From positions 830,419 to 894,418 of the forward strand of contig NZ_PXOQ01000007.1 in assembly GCF_003008425.1 (NCBI RefSeq): a stretch of DNA of 64,000 nt, written 5' to 3'. The notes under the pieces are model-generated. The model saw only the letters and a program-made list of their open reading frames with translations. It was not told the origin of the DNA and did no database searches. The translations under genes were made by a program, and so were the position numbers. This DNA comes from Aurantibacter aestuarii. GTDB taxonomy: Bacteria > Bacteroidota > Bacteroidia > Flavobacteriales > Flavobacteriaceae. This document shows positions 3 through 60,807 of this stretch, piece by piece. Each line of letters begins with the position of its first letter. Positions within the stretch are counted from its first letter, which is position 1.

Positions 3-1172
3 GTTATCCAACCAGGACAAGCTAAAGGAACTATCGGATTATCTTTAGGGTACGGTAGAGTAGCTGGTCTTAAGGACGAAATGAAAACAGGGGTTAATGC
101 TTATAAGTTATACACTAACTTTAATAGTACACAGTCTGTAGATATTGCTAAAGTAGCAGGGAAACATGAATTTGCGAGTATCCAAGTACAACGTACATTA
201 ATGGGTCGTGGAGATATTGTTAAAGAAACAACTTTAGAGGTGTTTAACACTAAAGATAAGCACTACTGGAATGCAATTCCAGTAGTATCTTTAAATCACC
301 AAGAGACTCCAGTAACGTCTCCAGAAGTAGATTTATGGGATGAATTTGATCGTTCTATTGGACATCACTTCAACTTATCAATCGATTTAAATGCATGTAC
401 CGGTTGTGGTGCTTGTGTTATTGCTTGTCATGCAGAGAATAATGTACCTGTAGTTGGTAAAGAAGAAATACGTCGTAGCCGTGATATGCATTGGTTACGT
501 ATAGATAGATATTATTCTTCAGAAGAAACTTTTGCTGAAGATGATGCTAAAAAAGAGGGATTCTCTGGTTTATTTGGAGATAATGGTTCTTTAGGAGGTT
601 TTGGAGAATTAGAAGATCCTGCAGATAATCCACAAGTAGCTTTCCAACCAGTTATGTGTCAGCACTGTAACCATGCTCCATGTGAAACTGTTTGTCCAGT
701 AGCGGCAACAGCTCATGGTCGTCAAGGTCAAAACCACATGGCTTATAACAGATGTGTTGGTACAAGATATTGTGCAAACAACTGCCCTTATAAAGTACGT
801 CGTTTTAACTGGTTCTTATATAACGGTAACGATGAGTTCGATTACCACATGAATGACGATTTAGGTCGTATGGTTATCAATCCAGATGTTACAGTACGTT
901 CTCGTGGAGTTATGGAGAAATGTTCTATGTGTATTCAAAAAACACAAAAAACTATTCTTGATGCTAAACGTGACGGACGTGAAATTAAAGATGGAGAATT
1001 CCAAACCGCTTGTTCTGCAGCTTGTAGCAATGGAGCAATGACTTTTGGAGACATAAACGATAAGGATAGTAAAGTTGCGGCTTTAACAAAAGATGATCGT
1101 ATGTATCACTTACTAGAAAGTGTTGGGACAAAACCAAATGTGATGTACCAAACTAAAGTAAGAAACATATAA
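3..1172 (+). CDS. actB: Alternative complex III iron-sulfur subunit ActB, C-terminal part (5' truncated by window edge)
   Basis: The reading frame is open from position 3 with no start, so the gene begins before the window and only its last 389 codons are visible. The visible part carries four ferredoxin-type cysteine groups: CTGCGACVIAC (from about position 396), CQHCNHAPCETVCP, CVGTRYCANNCP and CSMC with a later CSAAC. This is the pattern of the iron-sulfur domain of ActB, which passes electrons from menaquinol towards cytochrome c in alternative complex III. In this family an inactive molybdopterin-like domain normally precedes it and would lie upstream. actC follows 39 bp later in the same direction, which supports one operon. 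The assignment is firm; subunit lettering follows the Act convention. Confidence 0.93.
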   Translation, partial: VIQPGQAKGTIGLSLGYGRVAGLKDEMKTGVNAYKLYTNFNSTQSVDIAKVAGKHEFASIQVQRTLMGRGDIVKETTLEVFNTKDKHYWNAIPVVSLNHQETPVTSPEVDLWDEFDRSIGHHFNLSIDLNACTGCGACVIACHAENNVPVVGKEEIRRSRDMHWLRIDRYYSSEETFAEDDAKKEGFSGLFGDNGSLGGFGELEDPADNPQVAFQPVMCQHCNHAPCETVCPVAATAHGRQGQNHMAYNRCVGTRYCANNCPYKVRRFNWFLYNGNDEFDYHMNDDLGRMVINPDVTVRSRGVMEKCSMCIQKTQKTILDAKRDGREIKDGEFQTACSAACSNGAMTFGDINDKDSKVAALTKDDRMYHLLESVGTKPNVMYQTKVRNI

Positions 1173-1211
1173 TAAGTAGATAATTAACAAAGTAATAATT
1201 TAAAAAGGATT

Positions 1212-2672
1212 ATGGCGTCTCATTACGAAGCACCTATTAGAAGACCTTTAGTTACCGGTAACAAATCTTACCACGATGTAACTGTAGACATTGCCGCACC
1301 TGTAGAAGGTAAAGCAAATAAGCAATGGTGGATTGTTTTTTCAATCGCTCTTATTGCATTTCTTTGGGGAATAGGATGTATTATTTATACAGTATCTACA
1401 GGTATCGGTACTTGGGGATTAAACAGAACAGTAAACTGGGCTTGGGATATTACTAACTTCGTTTGGTGGGTTGGTATTGGTCACGCAGGAACATTAATTT
1501 CTGCAGTACTTTTATTATTCCGTCAAAAATGGAGAATGGCAATTAACCGTTCTGCGGAAGCAATGACAATCTTCTCGGTAGTTCAAGCAGGTTTATTCCC
1601 AATAATTCACATGGGTCGTCCATGGTTAGCATACTGGGTTTTACCTATACCAAACCAATTTGGATCGTTATGGGTAAACTTTAATTCACCTTTACTTTGG
1701 GATGTATTTGCAATTTCAACGTATTTATCGGTATCATTAGTATTCTGGTGGACTGGTTTATTACCTGACTTTGCAATGCTTAGAGATAGAGCTATCAAAC
1801 CATTCCAGAAAAAAATATACAGTTTACTAAGTTTTGGTTGGACAGGTAGAGCAAAAGACTGGCAACGTTTTGAAGAAGTTTCTTTAGTACTTGCAGGTTT
1901 AGCAACACCATTAGTACTTTCGGTACACACAATTGTATCGTTTGACTTCGCAACATCTGTTATACCAGGATGGCATACCACAATTTTCCCACCATACTTC
2001 GTTGCTGGTGCGATTTTCTCTGGATTTGCTATGGTAAACACACTTCTTATTATTATGCGTAAAGTATGTAATATGGAAGATTATATTACAGTACAACACA
2101 TTGAGTTAATGAATATTGTCATTATGCTTACAGGTTCTATTGTTGGTGTAGCTTATATTACAGAGTTATTCGTAGCATGGTATTCTGGTGTAGAGTTTGA
2201 GCAATATGCTTTCTTAAACAGAGCAACCGGACCTTACGCATGGGCATATTGGGCAATGATGTCATGTAACGTATTTTCTCCTCAATTTATGTGGTTTAAG
2301 AAATTACGTACAAGTATTATGTTTTCTTTTGCTATTTCAATTGTAGTAAACATTGGGATGTGGTTTGAGCGTTTTGTAATTATTGTAACATCATTACACA
2401 GAGATTACTTACCATCATCTTGGACAATGTTCTCTCCAACATTTGTAGATATTGGGATCTTTATAGGAACCATAGGATTCTTCTTTGTATTATTTTTATT
2501 ATACTCTAGAACATTCCCAGTTATCGCACAGGCCGAAGTAAAAACGATTTTAAAATCATCTGGAGACAAGTACAAAACTCTTAGAGATTCAGGACAATCT
2601 TTAGTTGGTACAGGAGCAGATGCAAGAACTTCTAATTTAAAATTAGAAGAAGATAATAACACAAACAATTAA
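1212..2672 (+). CDS. actC: Alternative complex III membrane subunit ActC (NrfD/PsrC-like)
   Basis: A 486-residue polytopic membrane protein of the NrfD/PsrC type, with many hydrophobic segments between about residues 38 and 440 and short soluble ends. In alternative complex III this subunit anchors the ActB iron-sulfur protein and provides a quinol-oxidising site in the cytoplasmic membrane. The early motif WWVGIGHAGTLISA and the following FRQKWR are typical of the family. It sits between the ActB iron-sulfur subunit and actD with short gaps. Its paralogue ActF is encoded further down the same operon. The start is supported by the MASHYEAPIRRPLV amino terminus usual in this family. Confidence 0.93.
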   Translation: MASHYEAPIRRPLVTGNKSYHDVTVDIAAPVEGKANKQWWIVFSIALIAFLWGIGCIIYTVSTGIGTWGLNRTVNWAWDITNFVWWVGIGHAGTLISAVLLLFRQKWRMAINRSAEAMTIFSVVQAGLFPIIHMGRPWLAYWVLPIPNQFGSLWVNFNSPLLWDVFAISTYLSVSLVFWWTGLLPDFAMLRDRAIKPFQKKIYSLLSFGWTGRAKDWQRFEEVSLVLAGLATPLVLSVHTIVSFDFATSVIPGWHTTIFPPYFVAGAIFSGFAMVNTLLIIMRKVCNMEDYITVQHIELMNIVIMLTGSIVGVAYITELFVAWYSGVEFEQYAFLNRATGPYAWAYWAMMSCNVFSPQFMWFKKLRTSIMFSFAISIVVNIGMWFERFVIIVTSLHRDYLPSSWTMFSPTFVDIGIFIGTIGFFFVLFLLYSRTFPVIAQAEVKTILKSSGDKYKTLRDSGQSLVGTGADARTSNLKLEEDNNTNN

Positions 2673-2681
2673 AAGTAGCAT

Positions 2682-3212
2682 ATGGAAGCTTCAAAAGTAA
2701 TTCACGCTATTTACAATGATGACGACATTTTAATGTCTGCAGTGAAACAAACACGTGCTGCTAAACATCATATCGAAGAAATTTATACACCATTTCCAGT
2801 TCACGGACTAGATAAGGCAATGGGATTAGCACCTACACGTTTAGCCATATGTGCCTTTATGTACGGTTGTGTCGGTTTAGCTGTTGCCACATTAATGATG
2901 AATTTTATCATGATTGAGGATTGGCCTCAGGATATTGGTGGTAAGCCAAGTTTCAGTTATTTAGAGAACATGCCGGCTTTTGTTCCAATTATGTTTGAGC
3001 TTACTGTATTTTTTGCAGCTCACTTAATGGTTATTACATTTTACTTAAGAAGTAGAATGTGGCCTTTTAAAGAAGCAGAAAACCCAGATAAAAGAACAAC
3101 AGACGATCATTTCCTTATGGAAGTACCTGTACATGGTGATGAAAAAGCACTACATGATTTTTTCTTATCAACTGGTGCTGTAGAAGTTAATATTGTAGAT
3201 AAAGCGCATTAA
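2682..3212 (+). CDS. actD: Alternative complex III subunit ActD (DUF3341 type)
   Basis: A 176-residue protein with a soluble N-terminal half containing KHHIEEIYTPFPVHGLD, followed by two hydrophobic segments (about residues 55-75 and 100-122) and a hydrophilic tail. This matches ActD, a two-helix membrane subunit of alternative complex III whose exact role is structural or in quinol/proton handling. It starts 9 bp after actC and ends 9 bp before actE, so it is translated within the same operon. The proposed family (DUF3341) is recalled from its characteristic N-terminal motif and context. Confidence 0.9.
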   Translation: MEASKVIHAIYNDDDILMSAVKQTRAAKHHIEEIYTPFPVHGLDKAMGLAPTRLAICAFMYGCVGLAVATLMMNFIMIEDWPQDIGGKPSFSYLENMPAFVPIMFELTVFFAAHLMVITFYLRSRMWPFKEAENPDKRTTDDHFLMEVPVHGDEKALHDFFLSTGAVEVNIVDKAH

Positions 3213-3221
3213 TTAGAACTC

Positions 3222-3770
3222 ATGAAGATTTTAAATAATTTAATACTAGTTTCAGTCCTTCTAATCTCTTTAGCATCTTGTAAAAAAGATTCTAGACCAA
3301 ATTACGAATACATGCCAAACATGTATGAGTCTGTTGGTTATGAAGCTTACCAAGAAGCTGAAATTTTTGCAGGTGATGTTGAAGCTCAGATTCCTGTAAA
3401 AGGAACTATTCCAAGAGGTTATTCGTTATTCGAAATTCCAAATACAACGGAAGGTTACGAATTAGCTAAAAACACATTACGTTCCCCATTAGATTCAACA
3501 CAAGTGGACGAAATTAAAACTGGTCAACTGTATCAAATTTACTGTGCTATTTGTCACGGTAATAATGGTAAAGGTCAAGGTAATCTAGTTAAAAGAGAAA
3601 AGATTCTTGGTGTTCCTAGTTATGCAGACAGAGATATTACCATTGGTAGTGTTTATCATACAATTTATTATGGTAAAAATGCAATGGGTTCTTATGCTAA
3701 CCAGTTGAATGAAAAAGAACGTTGGGAAGTAGCTCAGTATGTAATGAAATTACGTTCTGAAATAAAATAA
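3222..3770 (+). CDS. actE: Alternative complex III monohaem cytochrome c lipoprotein ActE
   Basis: A 182-residue lipoprotein. The N-terminus has a hydrophobic signal ending in LISLASC (Cys20), a signal peptidase II site, so the protein is membrane-tethered and faces the periplasm. One c-type haem motif, CAICH (about residue 108), is followed by the usual glycine-rich GNNGKGQG stretch, and a distal methionine lies near the C-terminus. This is the family picture of ActE, which receives electrons from the iron-sulfur part of alternative complex III and hands them to the oxidase encoded just downstream. Confidence 0.92.
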   Translation: MKILNNLILVSVLLISLASCKKDSRPNYEYMPNMYESVGYEAYQEAEIFAGDVEAQIPVKGTIPRGYSLFEIPNTTEGYELAKNTLRSPLDSTQVDEIKTGQLYQIYCAICHGNNGKGQGNLVKREKILGVPSYADRDITIGSVYHTIYYGKNAMGSYANQLNEKERWEVAQYVMKLRSEIK

Positions 3771-3798
3771 TAGGAGATAAAAGGTTATATATAAAGAT

Positions 3799-5199
3799 AT
3801 GTACACATTTTCAAGTAGACTTAAAATATTCGCTGTTATCCTAATCATACTAGGTATAATTGGTATCACTTTTGGTTTTATAGATTCAGATAAATCATTA
3901 GGTGATGTAAAAGAATTATTAGCAAGTGAAAGTTCACATGGTGGACATGGCGAAGCGCATGAAGCTAAAACAGTAGCTCATGTTGTAAAAGGTGGTAATG
4001 ATCATTCAGATAATACACATGCAGACGATACGCACGGTGCTTTATCAAGTGACAATCATCACGCTGAGGCATCACATGATGACGAGCATGCAGAACACGT
4101 TATGCATCAAATTCATAATAGACCATGGTCTGCATTATACGTGGCAGCTTTTTTCTTTATGATGATTTCTTTAGGTGTTCTTGCTTTTTACGCTATACAA
4201 TTTGCAGCTCAAGCGGGTTGGTCGCCATTACTATTTAGAGTTATGGAAGCTATTACTTATTACTTATTACCTGGAGCTATTATTGTTTTAGGTGTAGCAT
4301 ACTTTGCTGGTGATCATATTTTTATTTGGATGGATCCAGAAATGGTGAATCCTCAAAGTGAGCATTACGATAAATTAGTTGCAGGAAAACAAGGCTGGTT
4401 AAATAAAACAGGTTTTTTAATTAGAGGAATCATTTTTATTGCTGGTTGGTGTTTATACCGTTTCTTCGCTCGTAAATTCTCTTTAGCTCAAGATGATGCA
4501 GAAAAAGGTGATATTAGAAATTACAAGAAGACATTTAGAATTTCAGCAGCATTTTTAGTATTCTTTATTTATACAGAATCTATGATGTCTTGGGATTGGA
4601 TTATGTCTGTAGATCCTCACTGGTTTTCTACCTTATTTGGATGGTATGTGTTTGCAAGTATGTTTGTAAGTGGTATTACCGTTATTGCATTAATTACAAT
4701 GTATTTAAAGTCTAAGGGTTTATTACCACAGGTTAACGATAGCCATATTCATGATTTAGCTAAATTCATGTTTGGTATTTCTATTTTCTGGACTTACTTA
4801 TGGTTTTCACAATTTATGTTAATCTGGTACTCAAACATTCCAGAAGAAGTAACTTACTTCATAACTAGAATTGAAGATTATAAATTACCATTCTTTGGTA
4901 TGGTAGCCATGAATTTTGTTTTCCCATTATTACTGTTAATGAATAGTGATTACAAACGTTTACCTTGGTTTGTAGTAATGGCTGGGATAGTAATCTTATG
5001 TGGACACTATATTGATATCTTTAATATGATTATGCCTGCAACGGTTGGAGACAGATGGTTTATTGGTGTTCCAGAAATTGGATCAATATTACTATTTGCT
5101 GGTTTATTCATACTTATCGTATTTACTGCTTTATCAAAAGCACCGCTATTACCAAAAGGTAACCCTTTAATTAAGGAAAGTGAACATTTTCATTATTAA
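3799..5199 (+). CDS. actF: Alternative complex III membrane subunit ActF
   Basis: A 466-residue polytopic membrane protein, paralogous to ActC, with a first transmembrane helix at about residues 9-28 and the remaining helices from about residue 112. Between these lies a roughly 60-residue hydrophilic loop with about 14 histidines and many Asp/Glu residues (residues 46-108), which could bind metal. Motifs such as TESMMSWDWIMSVDPHWFSTLFGWY are characteristic of the family. The gene is the last act gene before coxB, giving the common Bacteroidota arrangement in which the quinol:cytochrome c oxidoreductase and its cognate oxidase are co-transcribed. Confidence 0.92.
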   Translation: MYTFSSRLKIFAVILIILGIIGITFGFIDSDKSLGDVKELLASESSHGGHGEAHEAKTVAHVVKGGNDHSDNTHADDTHGALSSDNHHAEASHDDEHAEHVMHQIHNRPWSALYVAAFFFMMISLGVLAFYAIQFAAQAGWSPLLFRVMEAITYYLLPGAIIVLGVAYFAGDHIFIWMDPEMVNPQSEHYDKLVAGKQGWLNKTGFLIRGIIFIAGWCLYRFFARKFSLAQDDAEKGDIRNYKKTFRISAAFLVFFIYTESMMSWDWIMSVDPHWFSTLFGWYVFASMFVSGITVIALITMYLKSKGLLPQVNDSHIHDLAKFMFGISIFWTYLWFSQFMLIWYSNIPEEVTYFITRIEDYKLPFFGMVAMNFVFPLLLLMNSDYKRLPWFVVMAGIVILCGHYIDIFNMIMPATVGDRWFIGVPEIGSILLFAGLFILIVFTALSKAPLLPKGNPLIKESEHFHY

Positions 5200-5221
5200 T
5201 ATATAAAGAAGAAGGACAACA

Positions 5222-6301
5222 ATGACTGCTTTATTATCAATTTTAGTTTTAGTTTTTATACTTGTTGCCATTTGGCAAATGGTTAAAATATTCGATTTAA
5301 CACAAGTCGGAAATAAGGAGGCCAATAATCAAGTTGCAAACGATACAGACAACCGTATTAATGGGTATTTAATGATAGGTTTCTTAATCTTCATTTATGT
5401 TATTACCATTATCTGTTTTGTAAAGTTTGGAGATTTACCTTTAATGTCTAATTCTGCTTCAGAACACGGACCTGGTATAGATAACTTGATGATCATTTCT
5501 ATGATTGTGATCTTTTTTGTACAAACGGTAACTCAGTTTTTATTACACTACTTTGCCTATAAATACAAAGGAGAAAAAGGTCGTAAAGCATTATTCTTTG
5601 CCGATAACAATAAATTAGAAGCTATTTGGACTATCATTCCAGTTATAGTTCTAGCTGGATTAATTATCCAAGGATTATTTACTTGGACTAATATCATGAA
5701 TATCGATACGTCTAAAGATCCTTTAGTTGTAGAGCTTTATGCTCAGCAATTTAACTGGAAAGCTCGTTATGCAGGACAAGATAATACCTTAGGAAAAGCT
5801 AACGTAAGATTAATTGATATTGATAGAGCTAATATTTTAGGGGTAGATGAATCGGACCCTAATGCTCAAGACGATATTATAACTACAGAGTTACACTTAC
5901 CAGTAGGTAAACCAGTACTATTTAAAATGCGTTCTCAAGATGTATTACACTCAGCTTATATGCCTCACTTTAGAGCTCAAATGAACTGTGTACCTGGTAT
6001 GATTACTCAATTTAGTTTTACACCTACTAAAACCACTGCAGAAATGCGTGAGACACCAGAAATGATTGATAAGGTTGCAAATATCAACAGAATTAGAGTT
6101 GAAAAAAGTAAAGAACTTGTTGCTAAAGGTGAAGAAGGTTTAGAACGTTACGAATTTGATTATCTATTATTATGTAATAAAATTTGTGGTAAATCTCATT
6201 ACAATATGCAAATGAAGATTATTGTGGAAACACAAGAAGAGTATGAGGCTTGGTTAAAAACACAAAAAGAGTTTAAATACTCTTTAGTTACTGTAGAATA
6301 A
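5222..6301 (+). CDS. coxB: Cytochrome c oxidase subunit II
   Basis: A 359-residue subunit II of a haem-copper oxidase. The CuA ligand set is intact: a His in DVLHSAYMPHF (about residue 240) and the C-x3-C-x3-H-x2-M series CNKICGKSHYNM (about residues 319-330). Four hydrophobic segments are visible (about residues 5-25, 48-70, 88-108 and 138-160), more than the two of classical subunit II. The CuA domain faces the periplasm and accepts electrons from cytochrome c or directly from ActE. It lies between actF and coxA with gaps of 22 and 24 bp. Confidence 0.94.
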   Translation: MTALLSILVLVFILVAIWQMVKIFDLTQVGNKEANNQVANDTDNRINGYLMIGFLIFIYVITIICFVKFGDLPLMSNSASEHGPGIDNLMIISMIVIFFVQTVTQFLLHYFAYKYKGEKGRKALFFADNNKLEAIWTIIPVIVLAGLIIQGLFTWTNIMNIDTSKDPLVVELYAQQFNWKARYAGQDNTLGKANVRLIDIDRANILGVDESDPNAQDDIITTELHLPVGKPVLFKMRSQDVLHSAYMPHFRAQMNCVPGMITQFSFTPTKTTAEMRETPEMIDKVANINRIRVEKSKELVAKGEEGLERYEFDYLLLCNKICGKSHYNMQMKIIVETQEEYEAWLKTQKEFKYSLVTVE

Positions 6302-6325
6302 AAAAGAAAAAGAAAATATAAGATT

Positions 6326-8119
6326 ATGTCAGCACACGTAGAAGATGCACATGCACACGACGATCATGGTCATCACCCTAAAGAAACGTTTATAACAAAA
6401 TATATTTTTAGCCAGGATCACAAAATGATTGCTAAGCAGTATTTAATTACTGGTACAATTATGGGTGTTATCGGCGTAATGATGTCTTTAATGATGCGTA
6501 TGCAAATTGCATGGCCAGAAGAGCCTAATGTAATTTTCAAAGCTTTATTAGGAAAATGGGCGCCAGAAGGTGTTATGGATGCCGATATTTATTTAGCATT
6601 AGTTACTATTCACGGTACAATTATGGTATTCTTTGTTTTAACAGCAGGTTTATCTGGTACGTTTAGTAACTTATTAATTCCACTCCAAATTGGTGCACGA
6701 GATATGGCTTCTGGATTCCTTAACATGGTTTCTTATTGGTTATTCTTTATTTCTAGTGTAATTATGGTTTGCTCATTTTTTGTTGAAGCAGGACCAGCAG
6801 CAGCGGGATGGACTATCTATCCACCATTAAGTGCATTACCTTTAGCGCAAGGTGGTTCTGGTATGGGTATGACCTTATGGTTAGTATCTATGGCAATATT
6901 TATCGCTTCTTCATTATTAGGATCGCTTAATTATGTTGTTACAGTTATCAATTTAAGAACAAAAGGAATGTCAATGACGCGTTTACCGCTTACAATCTGG
7001 GCGTTTTTCGTAACAGCTATTATCGGTATCATTTCATTCCCTGTATTATTATCTGCAGCATTATTATTGATAATGGATAGAAGTTTTGGTACATCATTTT
7101 TCTTATCAGATATCTTTATTCAAGGTGAAGTATTACATTACCAAGGTGGTTCTCCGGTTTTATTTGAGCACTTATTTTGGTTCTTAGGTCACCCGGAAGT
7201 ATATATTGTATTATTACCAGCATTAGGGATTACCTCAGAAATTATTGCAACAAACTCTCGTAAACCAATTTTCGGTTATAGAGCCATGGTAGCATCTATT
7301 TTAGCAATTGCCTTTTTATCGACAATTGTTTGGGGTCACCACATGTTTATCTCAGGAATGAATCCATTCTTAGGATCTGTATTTACATTTACGACTTTAT
7401 TAATTGCAATTCCTTCAGCGGTAAAAGCATTTAACTATATTACTACACTCTGGAAAGGTAACCTTCAGATGAACCCCGCAATGTTATTTTCTATTGGTTT
7501 AGTATCAACATTTATTACAGGAGGTTTAACTGGTATTATCTTAGGAGATTCAGCTTTAGATATTAACGTTCACGATACGTACTTTGTAGTGGCTCACTTC
7601 CACTTAGTAATGGGTATCTCTGCACTTTACGGGATGTTTGCTGGTATTTACCACTGGTTCCCGAAAATGTTCGGTAGAATGCTTAATAAGAAATTAGGTT
7701 ACATTCACTTTTGGGTAACCGCAGTGTGTGCTTATGGTGTATTTTTCCCAATGCACTTTATTGGAATGGCAGGTTTACCAAGACGTTATTATACCAACTC
7801 AAACTTCCCATTATTTGACGATTTAGCTAATGTAAATGTGGTAATAACATTATTTGCATTAATTGGAGGAGTTTTCCAATTGGTATTTTTATATAACTTT
7901 TTCGCTAGTATATTTTATGGTAAGAAAGCAGTTCAAAATCCATGGAGATCAAATACTATGGAGTGGACAACACCTGTAGAGCACATCCACGGAAACTGGC
8001 CTGGTGCTATACCAGAAGTTCACCGTTGGGCATACGACTATTCTAAGCCTGGTCATGAGGACGATTTTGTGCCTCAAACAGTACCAATGTATGAAGGTGA
8101 AGAAGAACTACAACACTAA
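6326..8119 (+). CDS. coxA: Cytochrome c oxidase subunit I
   Basis: A 597-residue catalytic subunit of an A-type haem-copper oxidase that reduces oxygen to water and pumps protons across the inner membrane. Haem and CuB ligands are all present: TIHGTIM (low-spin haem), GHPEVY (CuB histidine, cross-linked tyrosine and proton-path Glu), WGHHMF (two CuB histidines) and VAHFHLVMG (both haem irons). The first 20 residues are rich in histidine. No subunit III or IV gene follows; the operon ends here at a strong terminator. Confidence 0.96.
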   Translation: MSAHVEDAHAHDDHGHHPKETFITKYIFSQDHKMIAKQYLITGTIMGVIGVMMSLMMRMQIAWPEEPNVIFKALLGKWAPEGVMDADIYLALVTIHGTIMVFFVLTAGLSGTFSNLLIPLQIGARDMASGFLNMVSYWLFFISSVIMVCSFFVEAGPAAAGWTIYPPLSALPLAQGGSGMGMTLWLVSMAIFIASSLLGSLNYVVTVINLRTKGMSMTRLPLTIWAFFVTAIIGIISFPVLLSAALLLIMDRSFGTSFFLSDIFIQGEVLHYQGGSPVLFEHLFWFLGHPEVYIVLLPALGITSEIIATNSRKPIFGYRAMVASILAIAFLSTIVWGHHMFISGMNPFLGSVFTFTTLLIAIPSAVKAFNYITTLWKGNLQMNPAMLFSIGLVSTFITGGLTGIILGDSALDINVHDTYFVVAHFHLVMGISALYGMFAGIYHWFPKMFGRMLNKKLGYIHFWVTAVCAYGVFFPMHFIGMAGLPRRYYTNSNFPLFDDLANVNVVITLFALIGGVFQLVFLYNFFASIFYGKKAVQNPWRSNTMEWTTPVEHIHGNWPGAIPEVHRWAYDYSKPGHEDDFVPQTVPMYEGEEELQH

Positions 8120-53401: not shown

Positions 53402-53421
53402 ATTTGCTTATTTTTATACTT

Positions 53422-55788
53422 ATGAAAGATATTAATGATGGCTTTTATTTGCCTTTCAAAATTAAAATTGGATTTCAGGTTCTGTTAGATGTTTATAATC
53501 AGCTAACGCTTAATGACCACCAATTGCACAGAAAAAAGCAATTAGAGCATTTGGTAGAAACACATCCTGAGCTTATTGATGGGTTTTCTAATATTAATGA
53601 TTTGGAACGGTTAAATGAGCCAATACAATATATCTTGGAAGATGTATTTAGTGATGTCCTTACTTTAAATGAAATTAAAACCGCTTCGGTTATTTTTCAT
53701 AATAAAATATTTAAATCATCCCAGCGTTTCAAAAATATTATAAAAAATGCGGGAGATACATTTCAACTAAACATTGTTAATTTACCAGAAAATGATCAGT
53801 ATATTCTTTCTTGTGCGATTATTTTAAACGAATATTATGGGTATCAAGTAAATTTTAAACGTCCGTTTTATTATGAAATTCCCGATAAAAATGGACTTAA
53901 AAGAACCTACAAAATTTTGTATAATGCCGATTTTGTAAACATTATTAAAACAGATGCGGCTCCAGAAATTTCAAGATTAGACTACGAGTATTTAATTGAT
54001 AATTTTAATGATTTAGAAATCTGGCAAGAAAAATTCCCACCAAATAGTTATCTATTTTATGGGTTTGTCATTGGTAATATGGTAGATGTTACAGAAGATC
54101 AAGCCATATCCAACATTAAGGCTTCTTTAATAGCTAATAATAAACAGGAAAAAGATTTATTTATAAATAATTTTCAAGAGGTTTTTAAGAGTCTTTTAAA
54201 TGTTAGCGATTTACAGGTTGGCTTTTCAATATTTAACAAAGAAGACACATCATTAATTAAAGTTTATGATGCGAAAATAAATAGCTTTTTGCTTCAAAAA
54301 GATGATTCTCAATGTTGCACTAGTCTCTTTTGTAGCCATTCATTTCACAGCCTAATAAAGGATAAAAACTATTATTCTATTTCAAATGTCTCAGATGCCT
54401 TTAGACTATCTTATGGAGACTCACCACAATTAAGTATTTTACATAGCCAAGGTATAGAAAGCGCTATATTTGCACCAATATCGCATGAAGGGCAATTGTT
54501 AGGTATATTAGAGCTAGTGTCTAAAAAACCATTTGAATTAAATAGTTTTAAAGCCTATAAGCTGGAAGATGTAATGCCATACATACGTTTAGCAGTAAAA
54601 AGATCACAAGAAGAAGAGCAAAATCAAATTCAAGCTATAATTCAAAAAGAATGTACTTCAATACACCCAAGTGTACAATGGAAATTTGAAAGCGCAGCTA
54701 GGCATTACATGTATGAGACTCAACATCACAATGTAAAAGCTCGTTTCAAAAAAATAAATTTTAAAAATGTATTTCCGCTTTTTGGACAATCAGATATTGT
54801 AGGATCTTCTAAAGAAAGAAATGAAGCAACAAAAAAAGATTTATTACTACAATTAAAACTCATTAAGCAAACTATAATTTTAATAGTAGAGATTGTAGAA
54901 AATTCAGCTTTAAAAAACACACTAAGTCAATTAAATCATTTTGAAAAAGAACTCAATGAAGATATTCAGGTAAATACAGAGCGGGATTTTCAATTATTTT
55001 TTAAAAATGAGATAGAACCGTTATTTGATAGTCAAAAAAATAATCATAAAAACACCACATCATATGTCGATAGATATTACGAAAAATTAGATCCAGAATT
55101 AAAAACAATTTATTATTACCGAAAGAATTTTGATGAGAGCGTTTCTGCAATAAACGAAGATATTACCAAGGTAATAGACATAAGGCAATTAGGCGCACAA
55201 AAAGATTATCCTCATTATTTTGACCGCTATAAAACCGATGGTGTAGAACATAATATGTATATAGGTGAAGCTATAACGAAAGAGGACTCTTTTAAAACAG
55301 AACATTTGTACAATCTTAGGTTATGGCAACTTCAAACCATGTGTGAGATTGAAACCACTATAGAAAAAAATAATGATGCGTACCCTATGGCACTACAAAT
55401 AGCATCGATGATTTTAGTATTTAATCAACCCATATCTATAAATTTTAGATTTGATGAAAAACAATTTGATGTAGATGGTGCTTATAACGCCAGTTACGAA
55501 GTTGTAAAAAAACGAATTGATAAAGCTTGTATAAAAGGAACAGAAGAACGTGTCACTCAGGCAGGTAAAATATCAATAATGTATGCTCAAGATGATGACG
55601 CAGAAGAATATAAAAAATACATCAATTTCTTGCAGAGCAAATCATTTTTAAATAACGACCTTGAGTTTTTAGAGCTTGAAAACCTACAAGGGATAACTGG
55701 TCTAAAAGCACTTAGAGTAGGTGTAAATTACAAACTAAAAGTGCCTAAAAAATATTTTTCATATAACGACTTTCAAGAGCTCCATTAA
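53422..55788 (+). CDS. GAF-domain-containing protein of unknown function
   Basis: A 788-residue soluble protein. I choose ATG 53422 (MKDINDGFYLPFKI); an in-frame TTG 18 bp upstream lies against the terminator. A central segment (about residues 245-400) fits a GAF domain (LQVGFSIFNKED, GIESAIFAPISHEGQLLGILELVS). The flanking parts, about 240 residues before and 380 after, match no motif I recognise. No kinase, cyclase or phosphodiesterase motif is evident. It may sense a small ligand, but the output is unknown. It converges on the HD/PycTM gene with a 7-bp gap. Confidence 0.7.
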   Translation: MKDINDGFYLPFKIKIGFQVLLDVYNQLTLNDHQLHRKKQLEHLVETHPELIDGFSNINDLERLNEPIQYILEDVFSDVLTLNEIKTASVIFHNKIFKSSQRFKNIIKNAGDTFQLNIVNLPENDQYILSCAIILNEYYGYQVNFKRPFYYEIPDKNGLKRTYKILYNADFVNIIKTDAAPEISRLDYEYLIDNFNDLEIWQEKFPPNSYLFYGFVIGNMVDVTEDQAISNIKASLIANNKQEKDLFINNFQEVFKSLLNVSDLQVGFSIFNKEDTSLIKVYDAKINSFLLQKDDSQCCTSLFCSHSFHSLIKDKNYYSISNVSDAFRLSYGDSPQLSILHSQGIESAIFAPISHEGQLLGILELVSKKPFELNSFKAYKLEDVMPYIRLAVKRSQEEEQNQIQAIIQKECTSIHPSVQWKFESAARHYMYETQHHNVKARFKKINFKNVFPLFGQSDIVGSSKERNEATKKDLLLQLKLIKQTIILIVEIVENSALKNTLSQLNHFEKELNEDIQVNTERDFQLFFKNEIEPLFDSQKNNHKNTTSYVDRYYEKLDPELKTIYYYRKNFDESVSAINEDITKVIDIRQLGAQKDYPHYFDRYKTDGVEHNMYIGEAITKEDSFKTEHLYNLRLWQLQTMCEIETTIEKNNDAYPMALQIASMILVFNQPISINFRFDEKQFDVDGAYNASYEVVKKRIDKACIKGTEERVTQAGKISIMYAQDDDAEEYKKYINFLQSKSFLNNDLEFLELENLQGITGLKALRVGVNYKLKVPKKYFSYNDFQELH

Positions 55789-55795
55789 ATTGAAA

Positions 55796-57040
55796 TTATT
55801 TTACAGGAGCAACCTGTTCAGTAGCATCTGGTTTTAAAACATCTTCAATATCTGCTGTAGGATGTGTTTTAACGGCATAAGCAAAAGCAAATAACGATGT
55901 GATTATTCCAACCATGAAAACCGTGTAGGTTACTCTTAAAATTCTGTACTTTCTGTCTAAAACCTTTCCTAGAAAATATAAATCTTTAGTTAATGAAGAG
56001 TAGATGTAATCCCTATCTTGTATCAATTCTGAAATGGCCCACTCATAATCCTCTAACTTCATTCTATGAAAATTACCGAAAAAGGTTAAGTTAACATCTT
56101 TATTTCTTACATCTTCTTTAGTAAATTCCCCACGCGTAACATTAGGCCTGGTTGCAATTATAGATAAAACCATAGATACAACGCAGAATAAAGTAAAAAT
56201 AACAGTGGGTAAGGTTAAATATGGATTAGTATCTAGTTTAGATATTAAATTGGCTAAAACTACTGAAATGATTATGGCATTTACTGAAAGTAAAATATTT
56301 GCTTTTGTATCTGCAATATCACTTAGTTTAATGTGGTTTTTTAAAGTTATCCTATAAAAAGACTGAATACCTCTATCAGGACTTTCATCCTTATACTTTG
56401 TTTTTAATTTAGCTTTTATTTTTTCGGTTTCAATTTTAGATTTACGCTTTTTCTTAGTTTTAATGAGAGAGCCAAGATTTTTTTCTTTACGTTTTTCCCA
56501 ATTTTTTAAGGCATAATCTGTATAAAATTGATGCTTGTTGGCAAGTACATCTATATTTTCTGTAAGCCATTCTGTAGGCGAATATTTTTTTATGTTTTGT
56601 ATTTCTAGTTCTTTTCTTAAAAATTCGCTAGCCTCTTCAAAATATTTCTTCCCAAAATGAGAAGCATCTGCATCTCTTATTATCTTTTCTAATTCAGAAT
56701 TTGGAGAATCTTTAAATTTTGTAGCCATAATACATTTGTTTATGGCTTCAATTTTATCTTCAGCAACATTTTGTGATTTTAAAAACTGAGTAGCAATTTT
56801 TACACTTTCCTCCTCGTGACCTTCTCGGCATTTTGTGTAACCCGTATCATGCAACCAAGACGCAAGAATAACGATTTCTGCATCATTAACATTAATTTTA
56901 GAATTTTCAATTATTTCTTTGGTACTTTTAACCACACGTTTAGTATGGGTGTAATTATGATAGATAAAAGAATTGTCAAGTTCATTCTTAAATAACTCAA
57001 AAACGAAATCTTCAGTTTTTTTTATTAGGTCAGTTTTCAT
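55796..57040 (-). CDS. HD-domain phosphohydrolase fused to a Pycsar-effector-like membrane domain (DUF5706)
   Basis: A 414-residue protein. Residues 20-180 form an HD domain with the metal ligands in place: His32 (HNYTHTKR), His64-Asp65 (SWLHDTGY) and Asp123 (IRDAD). A charged linker (about 180-225) leads to a domain resembling the Pycsar effector PycTM: FYRITLKNHIKLSDIADTKANILLSVNA, with membrane helices at about 247-265 and 277-297, then a third at about 370-390. In Pycsar defence, cyclic CMP or UMP triggers such membrane effectors. Here no cyclase gene is adjacent, so this is a stand-alone protein whose HD half might degrade or sense a nucleotide. Confidence 0.8.
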   Translation of the reverse strand: MKTDLIKKTEDFVFELFKNELDNSFIYHNYTHTKRVVKSTKEIIENSKINVNDAEIVILASWLHDTGYTKCREGHEEESVKIATQFLKSQNVAEDKIEAINKCIMATKFKDSPNSELEKIIRDADASHFGKKYFEEASEFLRKELEIQNIKKYSPTEWLTENIDVLANKHQFYTDYALKNWEKRKEKNLGSLIKTKKKRKSKIETEKIKAKLKTKYKDESPDRGIQSFYRITLKNHIKLSDIADTKANILLSVNAIIISVVLANLISKLDTNPYLTLPTVIFTLFCVVSMVLSIIATRPNVTRGEFTKEDVRNKDVNLTFFGNFHRMKLEDYEWAISELIQDRDYIYSSLTKDLYFLGKVLDRKYRILRVTYTVFMVGIITSLFAFAYAVKTHPTADIEDVLKPDATEQVAPVK

Positions 57041-57093: not shown

Positions 57094-60000
57094 ATGAGAA
57101 AAAATAACATAATTCTAACACTTCTAGCAGTGTTTTTATTTTCAGCATGTGCAACGTATAAGGAGCAATATAAAGATGAGGATAATAAAATAGAAAATCT
57201 ACCAACAGATAAACCAATACAAACTTTTTATTTAATTGGAGATGCAGGAAAGTCTCCAGTAAATGGTATGTCTAAAGGCTTGACTATTTTAGACGAGCAT
57301 ATTAAAGATAAATCTACCAAAAAAGATTACATGATTTTTTTAGGAGACAACATCTATCCAGCTGGTTTGCCTAAGAAAGACGAAGCTGGCAGAGATAATG
57401 CAGTTAATGCATTAGAAGGTCAAATTAAGGCGACCAAAAACTTTAAAGGAGAAGTTGTTTTTATACCTGGTAATCACGATTGGTATTCTAACGGTTTGCA
57501 AGGTTTGGATCGAGAAGAAGATTATATAGACGATGCTCTTGGTAAAAACACGTTTCAACCTGAGAAAGGATGTCCTTTAGTTAGTTTGGACGTTAGTAAA
57601 GATGTACAGTTAATTATAATCGATTCTCAATGGTATCTAGAAGACTGGAATGAACATCCAACCATAAATGATGAATGCGAAATTAAAACGAGAGATCGTT
57701 TTTTTGAGGAGTTGGAAGGCGAATTGAAAAAAGCTCAAAATAAGACAGTCTTATTTGCAATGCATCATCCTATGAAGACTAATGGAGTTCATGGAGGTTT
57801 TTATGCAGCAAAAAAACATTTATATCCCTTACAGAAAAAAATTCCGATGCCAATATTAGCATCTTTAGTTACACAAATAAGAACGCAAGGAGGAGTTTCA
57901 ATTCAAGACAGGTATAACGAACGTTATAATGAATTGATGAACCGTATTGAAACTATGGCGTTGGAATATAATAACGTCGTTTTTGCTTCAGGTCATGAAC
58001 ATACATTACAATACATTGAAGAAGAAGGTATAAAACAAATTGTTTCAGGATCTGGTGCTAAAGAGTCTTTTGCGGCATTGTCTAACAATGGTTTATTTAG
58101 TTCTGGTAAACAAGGGTTTGTAGAATTTAATATTTATAAAAACGGTGAGGCTTTTGTAAGTTATTATGCAGAAGTTGCGGGAAAAAAAGAGTTGCTTTTT
58201 CAAAAGAAAGTATTAGAAAGTAGAAAGACATTCGACTTGTCTACCCTAAACGATACTTTTCCTCAAAAAATAGAAGCCTCAGTTTATACTAAAAGTGAAA
58301 CTGATAAGTCGAGTGTTTATGAATCTTTATTGGGTGATCGTTACAGAGAAATGTATAGTAAAAAAATTACAGTACCTGTAGCGACTTTAGATACACTTTA
58401 TGGTGGATTAGAAATTGTTAGAAAAGGAGGCGGACATCAAACTAGATCATTACGACTAAAAACTAAAGATGGAAGAGAGTTAAATATGAGAGCACTGCGT
58501 AAAAGTGCAACACAATATTTACAGACCGTAGTCTTTAAAGAAAATTATATTGAAGATCAGTTTACACAAACAAAAGTAGAAGATTTGGTCTTAGATTTTT
58601 ACACAGCAGCTCATCCTTATGCGTTTTTAGCAATACCAGATTTGTCTGATGCCGCTAAGGTTTACCACACCAACCCGAAGCTTTATTACATTCCAAAGCA
58701 TAAATATTTAGGAGAATACAATGCTGAATATGGCGGCGAGCTTTATATGATAGAAGAGCGTCCAGAAGAAAACTATACTAACGAACGTAACTTTGGCTAT
58801 GCAGACGATATCGAAAGTACTCATGATATTATAGAAAAAATACGTGAAGACGAAAAGTATAAAATTGATGAAAATTCTTATATAAGAGCGCGATTATTTG
58901 ATATGCTAATTGGAGATTGGGACAGACATCAAGATCAATGGAGATGGGCTCAGTTTGACCAAAAGAATGGAGACAAACTTTTTAAACCCATCCCAAGAGA
59001 TAGAGACCAAGTGTTTGCAAATTTTGATGGAGCATTGTTAGATATTTTAAGAGTAATTTCTGGTTCTACTAAGCAATTGCAAGTTTATGACGGCGAATTA
59101 AAAGACATTAAATGGATGAATTCTGCTGGTATTAAATTGGATAAAGTTTTAATTCAGCAGTCTGAAAAAGACGCATGGTTAAAACAAGCTAAATTTTTAC
59201 AAGAAAATGTTACCGATGAAGTTATAGAAACCGCATTTTCAAAATTACCTGAAGGAGCACAAGATAAAAATATTGATGAAATTAAAGGATATTTAAAGGA
59301 ACGTCGTTCTAATATGATAGATATTGCATCTAGATATTATAATTATTTAAATGAACTGGTTATTGTTACAGGTACAGATAAAGACGATTATTTTGAAATT
59401 ACAAGATCAGGAAATAAAGAAACTAATATTAAAATATTTAGGATTAAAGATGGTAAAAAGGCAGACACGCTTTTAAACAGAACATTTAATAAAGAAATTA
59501 CGAAAGAAATATGGGTCTATGGTTTAGATGATGATGATGTTTTTGAAGTAAAAGGTAATGCTAAAAATCCAATTTTCACTAGAATTATTGGAGGTCAGAA
59601 TAATGATATCTATAAAATTAAAAACGGTAAGAGAACTCGAGTTTATGACCATAAATCTAAACCAAATACTATAGAAGAAAGTAAAGGAGGACAAATTGTT
59701 TTAACCGATATTTATAATAATAACTTGTTCGATTTTAATAAAGGGATTGTTAAAACAAATGTGATTGCACCAAGTGTCGGGTTTAATCCAGATGATGGAG
59801 TTAAATTAGGAATTTTTAATACGTATACGGTAAAAGGTTTTAAACGAAACCCATATTCTCAACAGCATAAGTTTAATGCAGGGTACTTTTTTGCCACACA
59901 AGGATTTAGTATTAATTACGATGGAGAATTTGCTAATATTATAAAAGACTGGAACTTTCATATTGGAGGTAAAATAACCAGTGCAAATTTTACAAATAAC

Positions 60001-60807
60001 TTTTTCGGATTTGGTAATGAAACTGAAAATCCTTTAAATTTTGATGATGATTTAGATTTTGATTTTAACCGAGTTAAAATGAGTATTTATCACTTATCAT
60101 TAGGTTTTGTTAGAAAAGGAGATTTTGGTAGTGATTTTGGTTTAAAAGTATTTGGAGAAGGTATTCAAATTGAAGATACCAACGATAGATTTATTAATCT
60201 TGTAGAACCAGATAATGATTCTGAGCTTTACGAAAGACGTTATTTCGCAGGAGCAGAAGCTAACTTTTTGTATGCAGGTTACGATAGTAAAATTAACCCT
60301 ACAAGAGGTATGTTTTTTGAGCTTGAAATAGGTGGTAAAACAGAGCCAGAACGTACGGAAGGTACTTATGGTTATTTAAACTCAGATCTTACATTTTATA
60401 ATGCTTTAGTAACCAATAGAAAATTAGTTTTAAAAACAAAATTAAACACTCAAATTAGAGTAGGAAATGAATATTTGTTTTACCAAGCGGCAAACATTGG
60501 AGGTAATAATGGTTTAAGAGGTTTTAGAACAGAGCGTTTTACAGGTCAGTACGGTTTAGTAGGTAATGCAGATGTACGATACAGTTTTGAACCTTTAAAA
60601 ACAAAAACACTGCCATTACAGTTTGGGGTTTTTGCGGGAGGAGACGTTGGTCGTGTTTGGGTTAGAAGTGAAGAATCAGATAAATGGCACAACTCTTATG
60701 GTGGAGGTTTCTGGGTAACAGCAGCGGAGTCTCTAAGTGGAACGTTTAATTTATTCAACAGTGTCGATGGTTTAAGATTCTCCTTTGGTTTTGGAGTAAA
60801 TTTTTAA
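57094..60807 (+). CDS. Lipoprotein with calcineurin-type phosphatase, kinase-like and outer-membrane barrel domains
   Basis: A 1237-residue protein starting at ATG 57094, with the signal ending LFSAC (Cys19). Residues about 44-305 are a calcineurin-type metallophosphoesterase with FYLIGDAG, FLGDNIYP, GNHDWYS, AMHHPM and SGHEHT. Residues about 435-650 look kinase-like: GRELNMRALRKS, a hinge-like GGELYMIEERPE, then LIGDWDRHQDQWRWA (605-619) and PIPRDRDQVF, similar by eye to the catalytic and metal loops of FAM20/HipA-type kinases. An acidic beta-rich stretch (about 750-870) leads to a C-terminal Omp85/BamA-like barrel (about 890-1237) ending RFSFGFGVNF. Only the phosphatase and barrel are confidently assigned. 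The glpQ-like gene follows 2 bp later. Confidence 0.8.
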   Translation: MRKNNIILTLLAVFLFSACATYKEQYKDEDNKIENLPTDKPIQTFYLIGDAGKSPVNGMSKGLTILDEHIKDKSTKKDYMIFLGDNIYPAGLPKKDEAGRDNAVNALEGQIKATKNFKGEVVFIPGNHDWYSNGLQGLDREEDYIDDALGKNTFQPEKGCPLVSLDVSKDVQLIIIDSQWYLEDWNEHPTINDECEIKTRDRFFEELEGELKKAQNKTVLFAMHHPMKTNGVHGGFYAAKKHLYPLQKKIPMPILASLVTQIRTQGGVSIQDRYNERYNELMNRIETMALEYNNVVFASGHEHTLQYIEEEGIKQIVSGSGAKESFAALSNNGLFSSGKQGFVEFNIYKNGEAFVSYYAEVAGKKELLFQKKVLESRKTFDLSTLNDTFPQKIEASVYTKSETDKSSVYESLLGDRYREMYSKKITVPVATLDTLYGGLEIVRKGGGHQTRSLRLKTKDGRELNMRALRKSATQYLQTVVFKENYIEDQFTQTKVEDLVLDFYTAAHPYAFLAIPDLSDAAKVYHTNPKLYYIPKHKYLGEYNAEYGGELYMIEERPEENYTNERNFGYADDIESTHDIIEKIREDEKYKIDENSYIRARLFDMLIGDWDRHQDQWRWAQFDQKNGDKLFKPIPRDRDQVFANFDGALLDILRVISGSTKQLQVYDGELKDIKWMNSAGIKLDKVLIQQSEKDAWLKQAKFLQENVTDEVIETAFSKLPEGAQDKNIDEIKGYLKERRSNMIDIASRYYNYLNELVIVTGTDKDDYFEITRSGNKETNIKIFRIKDGKKADTLLNRTFNKEITKEIWVYGLDDDDVFEVKGNAKNPIFTRIIGGQNNDIYKIKNGKRTRVYDHKSKPNTIEESKGGQIVLTDIYNNNLFDFNKGIVKTNVIAPSVGFNPDDGVKLGIFNTYTVKGFKRNPYSQQHKFNAGYFFATQGFSINYDGEFANIIKDWNFHIGGKITSANFTNNFFGFGNETENPLNFDDDLDFDFNRVKMSIYHLSLGFVRKGDFGSDFGLKVFGEGIQIEDTNDRFINLVEPDNDSELYERRYFAGAEANFLYAGYDSKINPTRGMFFELEIGGKTEPERTEGTYGYLNSDLTFYNALVTNRKLVLKTKLNTQIRVGNEYLFYQAANIGGNNGLRGFRTERFTGQYGLVGNADVRYSFEPLKTKTLPLQFGVFAGGDVGRVWVRSEESDKWHNSYGGGFWVTAAESLSGTFNLFNSVDGLRFSFGFGVNF

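Follow-up and report, generated by a model that had tools for sequence, protein, structure and literature searches.

A predicted outer-membrane lipoprotein of Aurantibacter aestuarii joins a purple-acid-phosphatase-type domain, a kinase-like domain of an apparently new CotH-like family and a TamA-type barrel

What is accomplished by a single polypeptide in which a phosphatase, a kinase-like domain and an outer-membrane barrel follow one another? The question is raised by a gene in a stretch of 64,000 nucleotides of Aurantibacter aestuarii DNA (the window). Here, positions 57094-60804 of the forward strand (to 60807 with the stop codon) form a single open reading frame (ORF) of 1237 amino acids that lacks internal stops. 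Residue numbers refer to this protein throughout, and all its parts are given on the forward strand. Its layout is threefold, with a purple acid phosphatase at the N-terminus, a kinase-like domain in the middle and a 16-strand barrel of the TamA/BamA type at the C-terminus. The full-length model of residues 38-1237, based on 54 sequences, has a predicted local distance difference test score (pLDDT) of 85.6 and a predicted template modelling score (pTM) of 0.81. The original prediction, derived from the sequence alone, had recognized both terminal domains, had placed an ordered set of kinase-like features between them and had proposed that a kinase and a phosphatase activity might oppose each other in a protein anchored at the outer membrane. 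The latter proposal is kept here as a working hypothesis suggested by sequence and models.

The middle domain spans residues about 425-755 (58366..59358). The AlphaFold2 model of residues 385-775 (72 sequences, pLDDT 85.1, pTM 0.86) contains the two-lobed kinase fold of the protein-kinase-like (PKL) superfamily, and no contrary fold emerged from the fold searches, in agreement with the kinase-like character proposed for this region. Foldseek with this model places COQ8A (E 1.7e-4), PI4KII alpha (E 4.8e-4) and HipA (E 0.0027, probability 1.00) within its 15 best rows. In a second structural alignment, for which the 1000 best chains were realigned and 50 rows listed, all 50 listed rows are titled kinases. 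The best matches are tied between PI4KII and CotH: PI4KII beta (9hhm_B) aligns over 248 residues with Z 15.1 and a root-mean-square deviation (rmsd) of 4.2, the PI4KII rows having 8-9% identity, and CotH of Bacillus cereus (5jd9) aligns over 253 residues with Z 14.6, rmsd 4.0 and 16% identity, the highest among the listed rows. CtkA (Z 13.0), VPS34 (about 11.9) and HipA (about 11.4) follow at lower scores.

Profile comparisons lead to the same superfamily. A diverse set of 33 sequences, with 26-59% identity to the reference protein and stand-alone copies included, was aligned as a profile to 22 CotH sequences of Bacteroidota with hhalign, giving an E-value of 7.7e-5 and a score of 41.8. As controls, 60 column shuffles scored at most 21.6 (best E 0.058) and the reversed alignment 12.0, while the benchmark of CotH against HipA, two accepted relatives, scored 24.1. 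When the 33-member profile was searched against 177,635 PDB sequences with hmmsearch, CtkA came first (E 0.0025), aligned on DRHxxxW, and the next match had an E-value of 0.099. A narrower family profile reached a protein of another genome (E 7.3e-4) which in Pfam matches HipA_C and, weakly, Fam20C. A 459-residue HipA_C/Fam20C-like protein with the sequence DRHHYNWG (L219) is a possible bridge between HipA, FAM20 and the present family.

Single-sequence searches of Pfam, NCBIfam, PHROGs and PDB with the middle region gave no match, a result that neither supports nor refutes a kinase, and the Pfam models of CotH (PF08757), HipA_C (PF07804) and FAM20C (PF06702) gave no match at E <= 1. PADLOC returned weak matches only (PDC-M03A, E 0.0021 and 0.0045), over the DWDRH stretch. 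The resemblance to FAM20C and HipA that had been proposed is right as to kinase likeness, but the nearest families are CotH and PI4KII and, by PDB sequence, CtkA. HipA membership was rejected by profile (hhalign E 0.39 for alignment A2 and 0.22 for alignment A6); the HipA alignment, although non-significant, keeps the same DxxxxN/Q register. As for FAM20C, the Golgi casein kinase 4kqa_B appears far down the Foldseek ranking (E 0.011, TM 0.28), and FAM20C chains are not among the 50 rows listed in the second alignment, from which exclusion does not follow. Since the model with its fold search, the controlled profile-profile comparison, the PDB profile search and residue conservation agree, the middle domain appears to be a CotH-like, apparently new family of the kinase superfamily, as far as sequence and model tell.

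Conservation was counted over 80 sequences, namely the reference protein and 79 loci from named genomes; the named loci are the best 80 of at least 586 relatives and hence close ones, and some of the collected sequences may share one species. Several of the 79 frames end at contig edges and gaps are scored as misses. The row of locus L078 is a degenerate neighbouring paralogue (ORF 88-3837), which is included in the 80-sequence and 154-row counts and in both structure alignments. All kinase-like motifs put forward from the sequence are present in order, and R466, K470, E555, D608, D610, H612, D636 and D638 are each kept in 79-80 of the 80 sequences, so that the putative Lys and the DRH and DRD residues proved conserved. 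The glycine-rich loop GGGHQ (residues 445-449; 58426..58440) comes first, with G446 in 80/80, G445 and G447 in 79/80 and Q449 in 73/80. The modelled strand of residues 462-470 ends in R466-K470 (58489..58503), within MRALRK (465-470), and carries the candidate phosphate-binding basic residues R466 and K470, each in 79/80. A hinge-like sequence YMIEERP (551-557; 58744..58764), followed by a further Glu in the proposed YMIEERPE, forms a strand in the model with E554 and E555, the latter kept in 79/80. DWDRH (608-612; 58915..58929) is the counterpart of the catalytic loop (D608, W609, D610 and R611 80/80; H612 79/80), and DRD (636-638; 58999..59007), within PIPRDRDQVF (632-641), that of the metal loop (D636 79/80; R637 and D638 80/80).

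The same residues persist at greater distance. In the 33-sequence set, down to 26% identity, GGG, R466, K470, DWDRH and DRD are all kept in at least 90%. Every sequence agrees at R466, K470, D608, D636 and D638, the 90% level applies to D610 and H612, and E554, likewise kept in at least 90%, replaces E555 as the kept Glu. K470, D610 and D636 are jointly kept in 134 of 154 aligned rows, a count that excludes the reference and in which 7 of the other 20 rows are gapped at key positions. In the hhalign alignment to CotH, D610 falls on the catalytic Asp D228 and D636 on the metal Asp D251; the B. subtilis CotH variants D228Q and D251A are inactive, according to an excerpt of PMC7821199.

Several observations weigh against a classical active kinase of CotH type. 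The Foldseek TM-scores of the three best rows are low (0.25-0.42), and the rmsd to the PI4KII and CotH structures amounts to 4.0-4.2. The relationship to CotH is remote: hhalign assigns it a probability of 62% for the wide set, and of 16% (E 0.0016) for the close set alone. The residue five positions after D610 is Gln615 in 79/80 sequences, where the metal-binding Asn N171 of protein kinase A would be expected; Asn occurs here in just 4 of 44 distant rows, which are pieces of 42 ORFs picked non-randomly for diversity. HipA and CtkA carry Asn at this position in their alignments to the present family, and this Asn is retained in all novel families of the Legionella kinome (excerpt of PMC9758233). 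The assignment of the Lys is also insecure: the Lys-bearing strand that had been postulated is there, yet K470 stands at the strand end, R466 four residues earlier is equally conserved, and a forced global hhalign alignment to CotH for the Lys register did not usefully align the N-lobe. In the degenerate relatives L210, L211, L212 and L215 the Arg is gone while the Lys is retained; because of this loss, R466 may be the true phosphate-binding residue, as judged from the alignment. A Legionella kinase family in which Arg replaces K72 is on record (excerpt of PMC9758233).

A minority of distant members has lost several motifs and looks pseudokinase-like. The altered members are L200, L207, L208 and L210-L218, in which several of the Gly-loop, the Arg, DRH and DRD are changed, and the lost sets differ: L211, L212 and L215 keep D610 and lose the Arg, the His and DRD, while both the Arg and the Lys are intact in L207 and L208. 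L210 is altered yet still fused to an Omp85 barrel. At locus L078, the degenerate full-length paralogue (88-3837) adjoins the listed match (5001-6125). Elsewhere, at L191, L192 and L193, adjacent kinase-like genes on opposite strands encode 530-590 residues, DWDRH being present in one gene and DWSRR in its neighbour. By analogy, such neighbours recall pairs of an active kinase and a pseudokinase, of which FAM20C and FAM20A are an example.

The N-terminal domain (residues 38-378; 57205..58227) is of the purple-acid-phosphatase type. The calcineurin-type phosphatase recognized in the original prediction is confirmed by Pfam Metallophos (PF00149, calcineurin-type phosphoesterase; residues 63-243, E 8.7e-8), and the model of residues 38-378 matches human TRAP (2bq8) with Z 28.3, rmsd 3.0, 270 aligned residues and 21% identity. 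In purple acid phosphatases the metals are bound by seven residues (two Asp, a Tyr, an Asn and three His). The fold and all seven ligand positions are present in model and alignment, in the motifs GDAG (D50), GDNIY (D85, Y88), GNHD (N127, H128), HH (H225) and GHEH (H301, H303); out of 80 sequences, D50 is kept in 73, D85 in 71, Y88 in 76, N127 in 76, H225 in 79, H301 in 76 and H303 in 73.

The two ends of the protein point to the outer membrane. A lipoprotein-type signal peptide (57094..57150) ends in FSAC, which we take to be the lipobox by the general lipobox rule, and its Cys19 is kept in 76/80 sequences, in line with the lipoprotein that had been suggested. At the other end lies a 16-strand Omp85/TamA-type beta-barrel (about 887-1235; 59752..60798), whose residues 1141-1144 form an LRG[FY]-type motif. 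Its model matches TamA (4n74) with Z 27.2 and rmsd 2.8 over 292 residues, the TamA/BamA rows spanning Z 23-27, and the 16 strands counted in the full model are those of the Omp85 superfamily. The Omp85-like barrel was therefore correctly called, although NCBIfam Omp85_fam (E 3.8e-21) remains below its cut-off and a weak Pfam match to a TpsB-type barrel (residues 1082-1195) lies slightly under the cut-off. Between the kinase-like domain and the barrel, a linker of about 755-870 (59356..59703) forms short regular strands in the full model and has Asp-rich repeats (GTDKDD, GLDDDD, GGQNND) that are largely conserved in the 80 sequences; in the model, it resembles a small beta-solenoid. No POTRA domain was recognised in the secondary structure of the full model, in which the stretch 755-870 was considered without a separate fold search.

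The kinase-like domain spreads as a module. It occurs in 143 of 395 sampled Bacteroidota genomes and in three architectures, i.e., stand-alone, joined to a barrel, or joined to both phosphatase and barrel, and most motifs are retained in the barrel-only and stand-alone versions across Bacteroidota. Among the 150 matches listed, 98 frames have at least 1100 residues, 37 have 800-1050, nine have 500-650 and six have 400-450. The long distant members L202, L203, L204 and L206 have the phosphatase in 4/4 cases and an Omp85-family match in 3/4, with one under the cut-off. Of six frames of 800-1050 residues, five (L187, L198, L201, L205 and L210) have Omp85 without phosphatase, and L188 gave no Pfam match. 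The architectures cluster on the tree, with 7 changes compared to a shuffled mean of 31.1. The genome of the reference protein also harbours a stand-alone copy (L031, G000:C6:810368-811372), which is 33% identical and has DWDRH and DRD intact; it counts 423 residues from a TTG start, has a membrane-like N-terminal segment by eye and carries neither phosphatase nor barrel. A CotH (PF08757) above the Pfam cut-off is encoded elsewhere in the same genome (G000:C7:11298-12317). Genome G013 contains three copies inside about 9 kb, and a plasmid record of Parabacteroides distasonis (L224) holds, at 4920-7379, an 819-residue frame with the kinase-like domain that is annotated as 'hypothetical protein'.

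By computation, then, three folds are recognised, active-site residues are conserved in each of the two soluble modules, and the kinase-like domain spreads as a module. With moderate confidence, we propose an outer-membrane lipoprotein enzyme in which two opposed phosphoryl-transfer modules, one a purple acid phosphatase and the other an atypical kinase resembling CotH, face the periplasm on a TamA-type barrel anchor. Because of the lipoprotein signal and the barrel, the protein would be placed at the outer membrane and outside the cytoplasm; by analogy with PlpD, its N-terminal soluble modules are probably periplasmic. The kinase-like module would add phosphate to a target in the envelope, and the purple acid phosphatase would strip it off again. 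Catalysis by the former is suggested by the motifs being kept together in nearly all close members and several of them being lost jointly in a distant minority. The target would most likely be a protein or a lipid of the cell envelope that the attached phosphatase can dephosphorylate. Adenosine triphosphate (ATP) may serve as donor if it gets into the periplasm, or else some other phosphorylated compound may do so; that the periplasm is regarded as poor in ATP speaks against the proposal.

The main rival concerns the substrate. The kinase-like module might be active but have a lipid or a glycolipid (lipid A, a phospholipid, the lipopolysaccharide core) as its substrate, or transfer another group, e.g., adenosine monophosphate, rather than phosphorylate proteins, and we consider this not very likely. 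Its attraction is that the top structural rows are the PI4KII lipid kinases, with VPS34 lower, and that the kinase folds of SelO and SidJ perform other chemistry. A gene for a glycerophosphodiester phosphodiesterase lies directly after the fusion gene in the window; such a neighbour occurs in 15 of the 79 loci only, and it was set aside as a substrate clue for this reason. CotH and CtkA, the nearest by sequence, are protein kinases (for CotH, also an excerpt of PMC7821199), which argues for the opposite. PlpD, in which an Omp85 barrel is joined to a periplasmic patatin-like domain, is a further point for a lipid, since the lipid composition is changed without it (excerpt of PMC11116518).

Next comes the view of the kinase-like domain as a pseudokinase, in which a scaffold or sensor devoid of catalysis would bind a nucleotide or phosphate compound and exert control over the phosphatase or barrel. 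The Gln in place of Asn after D610, an extracytoplasmic site with little ATP, and the degenerate relatives (L200, L207, L208, L210-L218 and the L078 paralogue) would suit such a role. Against this, the motifs are almost invariant in the main lineage, and the degenerate relatives alter several motifs jointly in varying sets, which fits catalytic residues in the other members; we hold this view to be doubtful.

It is improbable that the protein is chiefly a TamL-like outer-membrane assembly or translocation factor in which the soluble domains stand in for POTRA and are non-enzymatic. The TamA/BamA rows obtained with the barrel speak for it, as does TamL of Bacteroidota, likewise a TamA-like lipoprotein (excerpt of PMC12045153), but both phosphatase metal ligands and kinase motifs are conserved, and L031 carries the kinase-like domain without phosphatase or barrel. 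That the kinase likeness is a motif-reading artefact or chance structural match, as the empty single-sequence searches of Pfam, NCBIfam and PDB for the middle region might insinuate, is highly improbable given the four concurring lines of evidence named above.

The neighbourhood adds a possible partner to the proposed outer-membrane enzyme. The divergent neighbour (55796..57040, reverse strand) encodes an HD domain (PF01966) and a Pycsar-effector transmembrane domain (PycTM, PF18967). An HD-PycTM gene lies near the fusion gene in 57/79 loci, as scored inside 5 kb flanks (less at contig ends), and is divergent within 300 bp in 40/79; it is absent in 17/79 despite at least 1.5 kb of upstream sequence, and in 5/79 the upstream region is cut. 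It is also found close to the distant members L202, L203 and L188. This recurrent neighbourhood is a sign of a process shared with the fusion protein, short of proof, and its conservation suggests a housekeeping envelope role for HD-PycTM rather than phage defence. Beside or near HD-PycTM, a 794-residue protein with sub-threshold Pfam GAF matches only (53404-55788, forward strand, in the window) is encoded in 45/79 loci. On a speculative and rather unlikely extension of the proposed enzyme, the protein would be a self-contained outer-membrane phosphorylation switch. In such a switch, the kinase would draw on a donor other than cytoplasmic ATP (e.g., a phospholipid, pyrophosphate or an exported nucleotide), the phosphatase would reverse its action on envelope targets and the barrel would link the switch to lipid flow or to the assembly of the membrane, in concert with the divergently encoded HD-PycTM phosphohydrolase of the inner membrane.

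The kinase superfamily is known, while the family, for which there is no Pfam or NCBIfam model, and the fusion both appear undescribed within the open-licence literature, in the titles and abstract openings of which the fusion was not found. The words 'phosphatase' and 'kinase' are absent from the main texts of PMC4104836, PMC12611786 and PMC12045153. A metallophosphoesterase of Riemerella, listed under type IX effectors in a review (excerpt of PMC10202324), seems to be a different protein, set apart by its description only. Should the kinase-like module prove active, many Bacteroidota, including Parabacteroides distasonis, would bear at their outer membrane a kinase whose active site looks intact, and extracytoplasmic phosphorylation in Gram-negatives, together with its phosphate donor, would become testable via one gene.

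Among known systems, the Bacillus spore coat kinase CotH (PF08757) shares the fold, and its GxWDxY and IPYDYD are in register with GDWDRH and PIPRDRD. Unlike CotH, which has RGNTS in the alignment where the present family has GGGxQ, the domain described here has a shorter catalytic loop and no match to Pfam CotH, and it is fused to a phosphatase and a barrel. PI4KII provides the best structural rows, with its Z of 15.1 over 248 residues, but comprises eukaryotic lipid kinases of 8-9% identity that went unmatched when PDB sequences were searched. CtkA of Helicobacter pylori is the sole clear PDB sequence match (E 0.0025), and HipA is alike in fold (Z about 11) and in the DxxxxN/Q register, but unlike in profile (E 0.22). 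To our knowledge, CtkA and HipA proteins have neither a signal nor a barrel. With regard to architecture, PlpD also carries an enzyme-like domain on an Omp85 barrel, but its N-terminal domain is patatin-like (excerpt of PMC11116518), and TamL is also a lipoprotein form of the Omp85 barrel, but has N-terminal POTRA domains (excerpt of PMC12045153).

A parallel in biological setting comes from animals. FAM20C has a DRH motif, which recurs here, and works in an extracytoplasmic setting, as the present protein probably does; the Pfam model of FAM20C gave no match. Osteopontin is phosphorylated by FAM20C. TRAP removes all 28 osteopontin phosphates (excerpt of PMC5486932). In animal bone, these opposed activities reside in separate proteins, FAM20C and TRAP/ACP5, whereas a CotH-like kinase fold and a TRAP-type phosphatase, possibly opposed as well, are here naturally fused in one chain. 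As read from sequence and models, the fusion may hint at phosphate addition and removal outside the cytoplasm of these bacteria.

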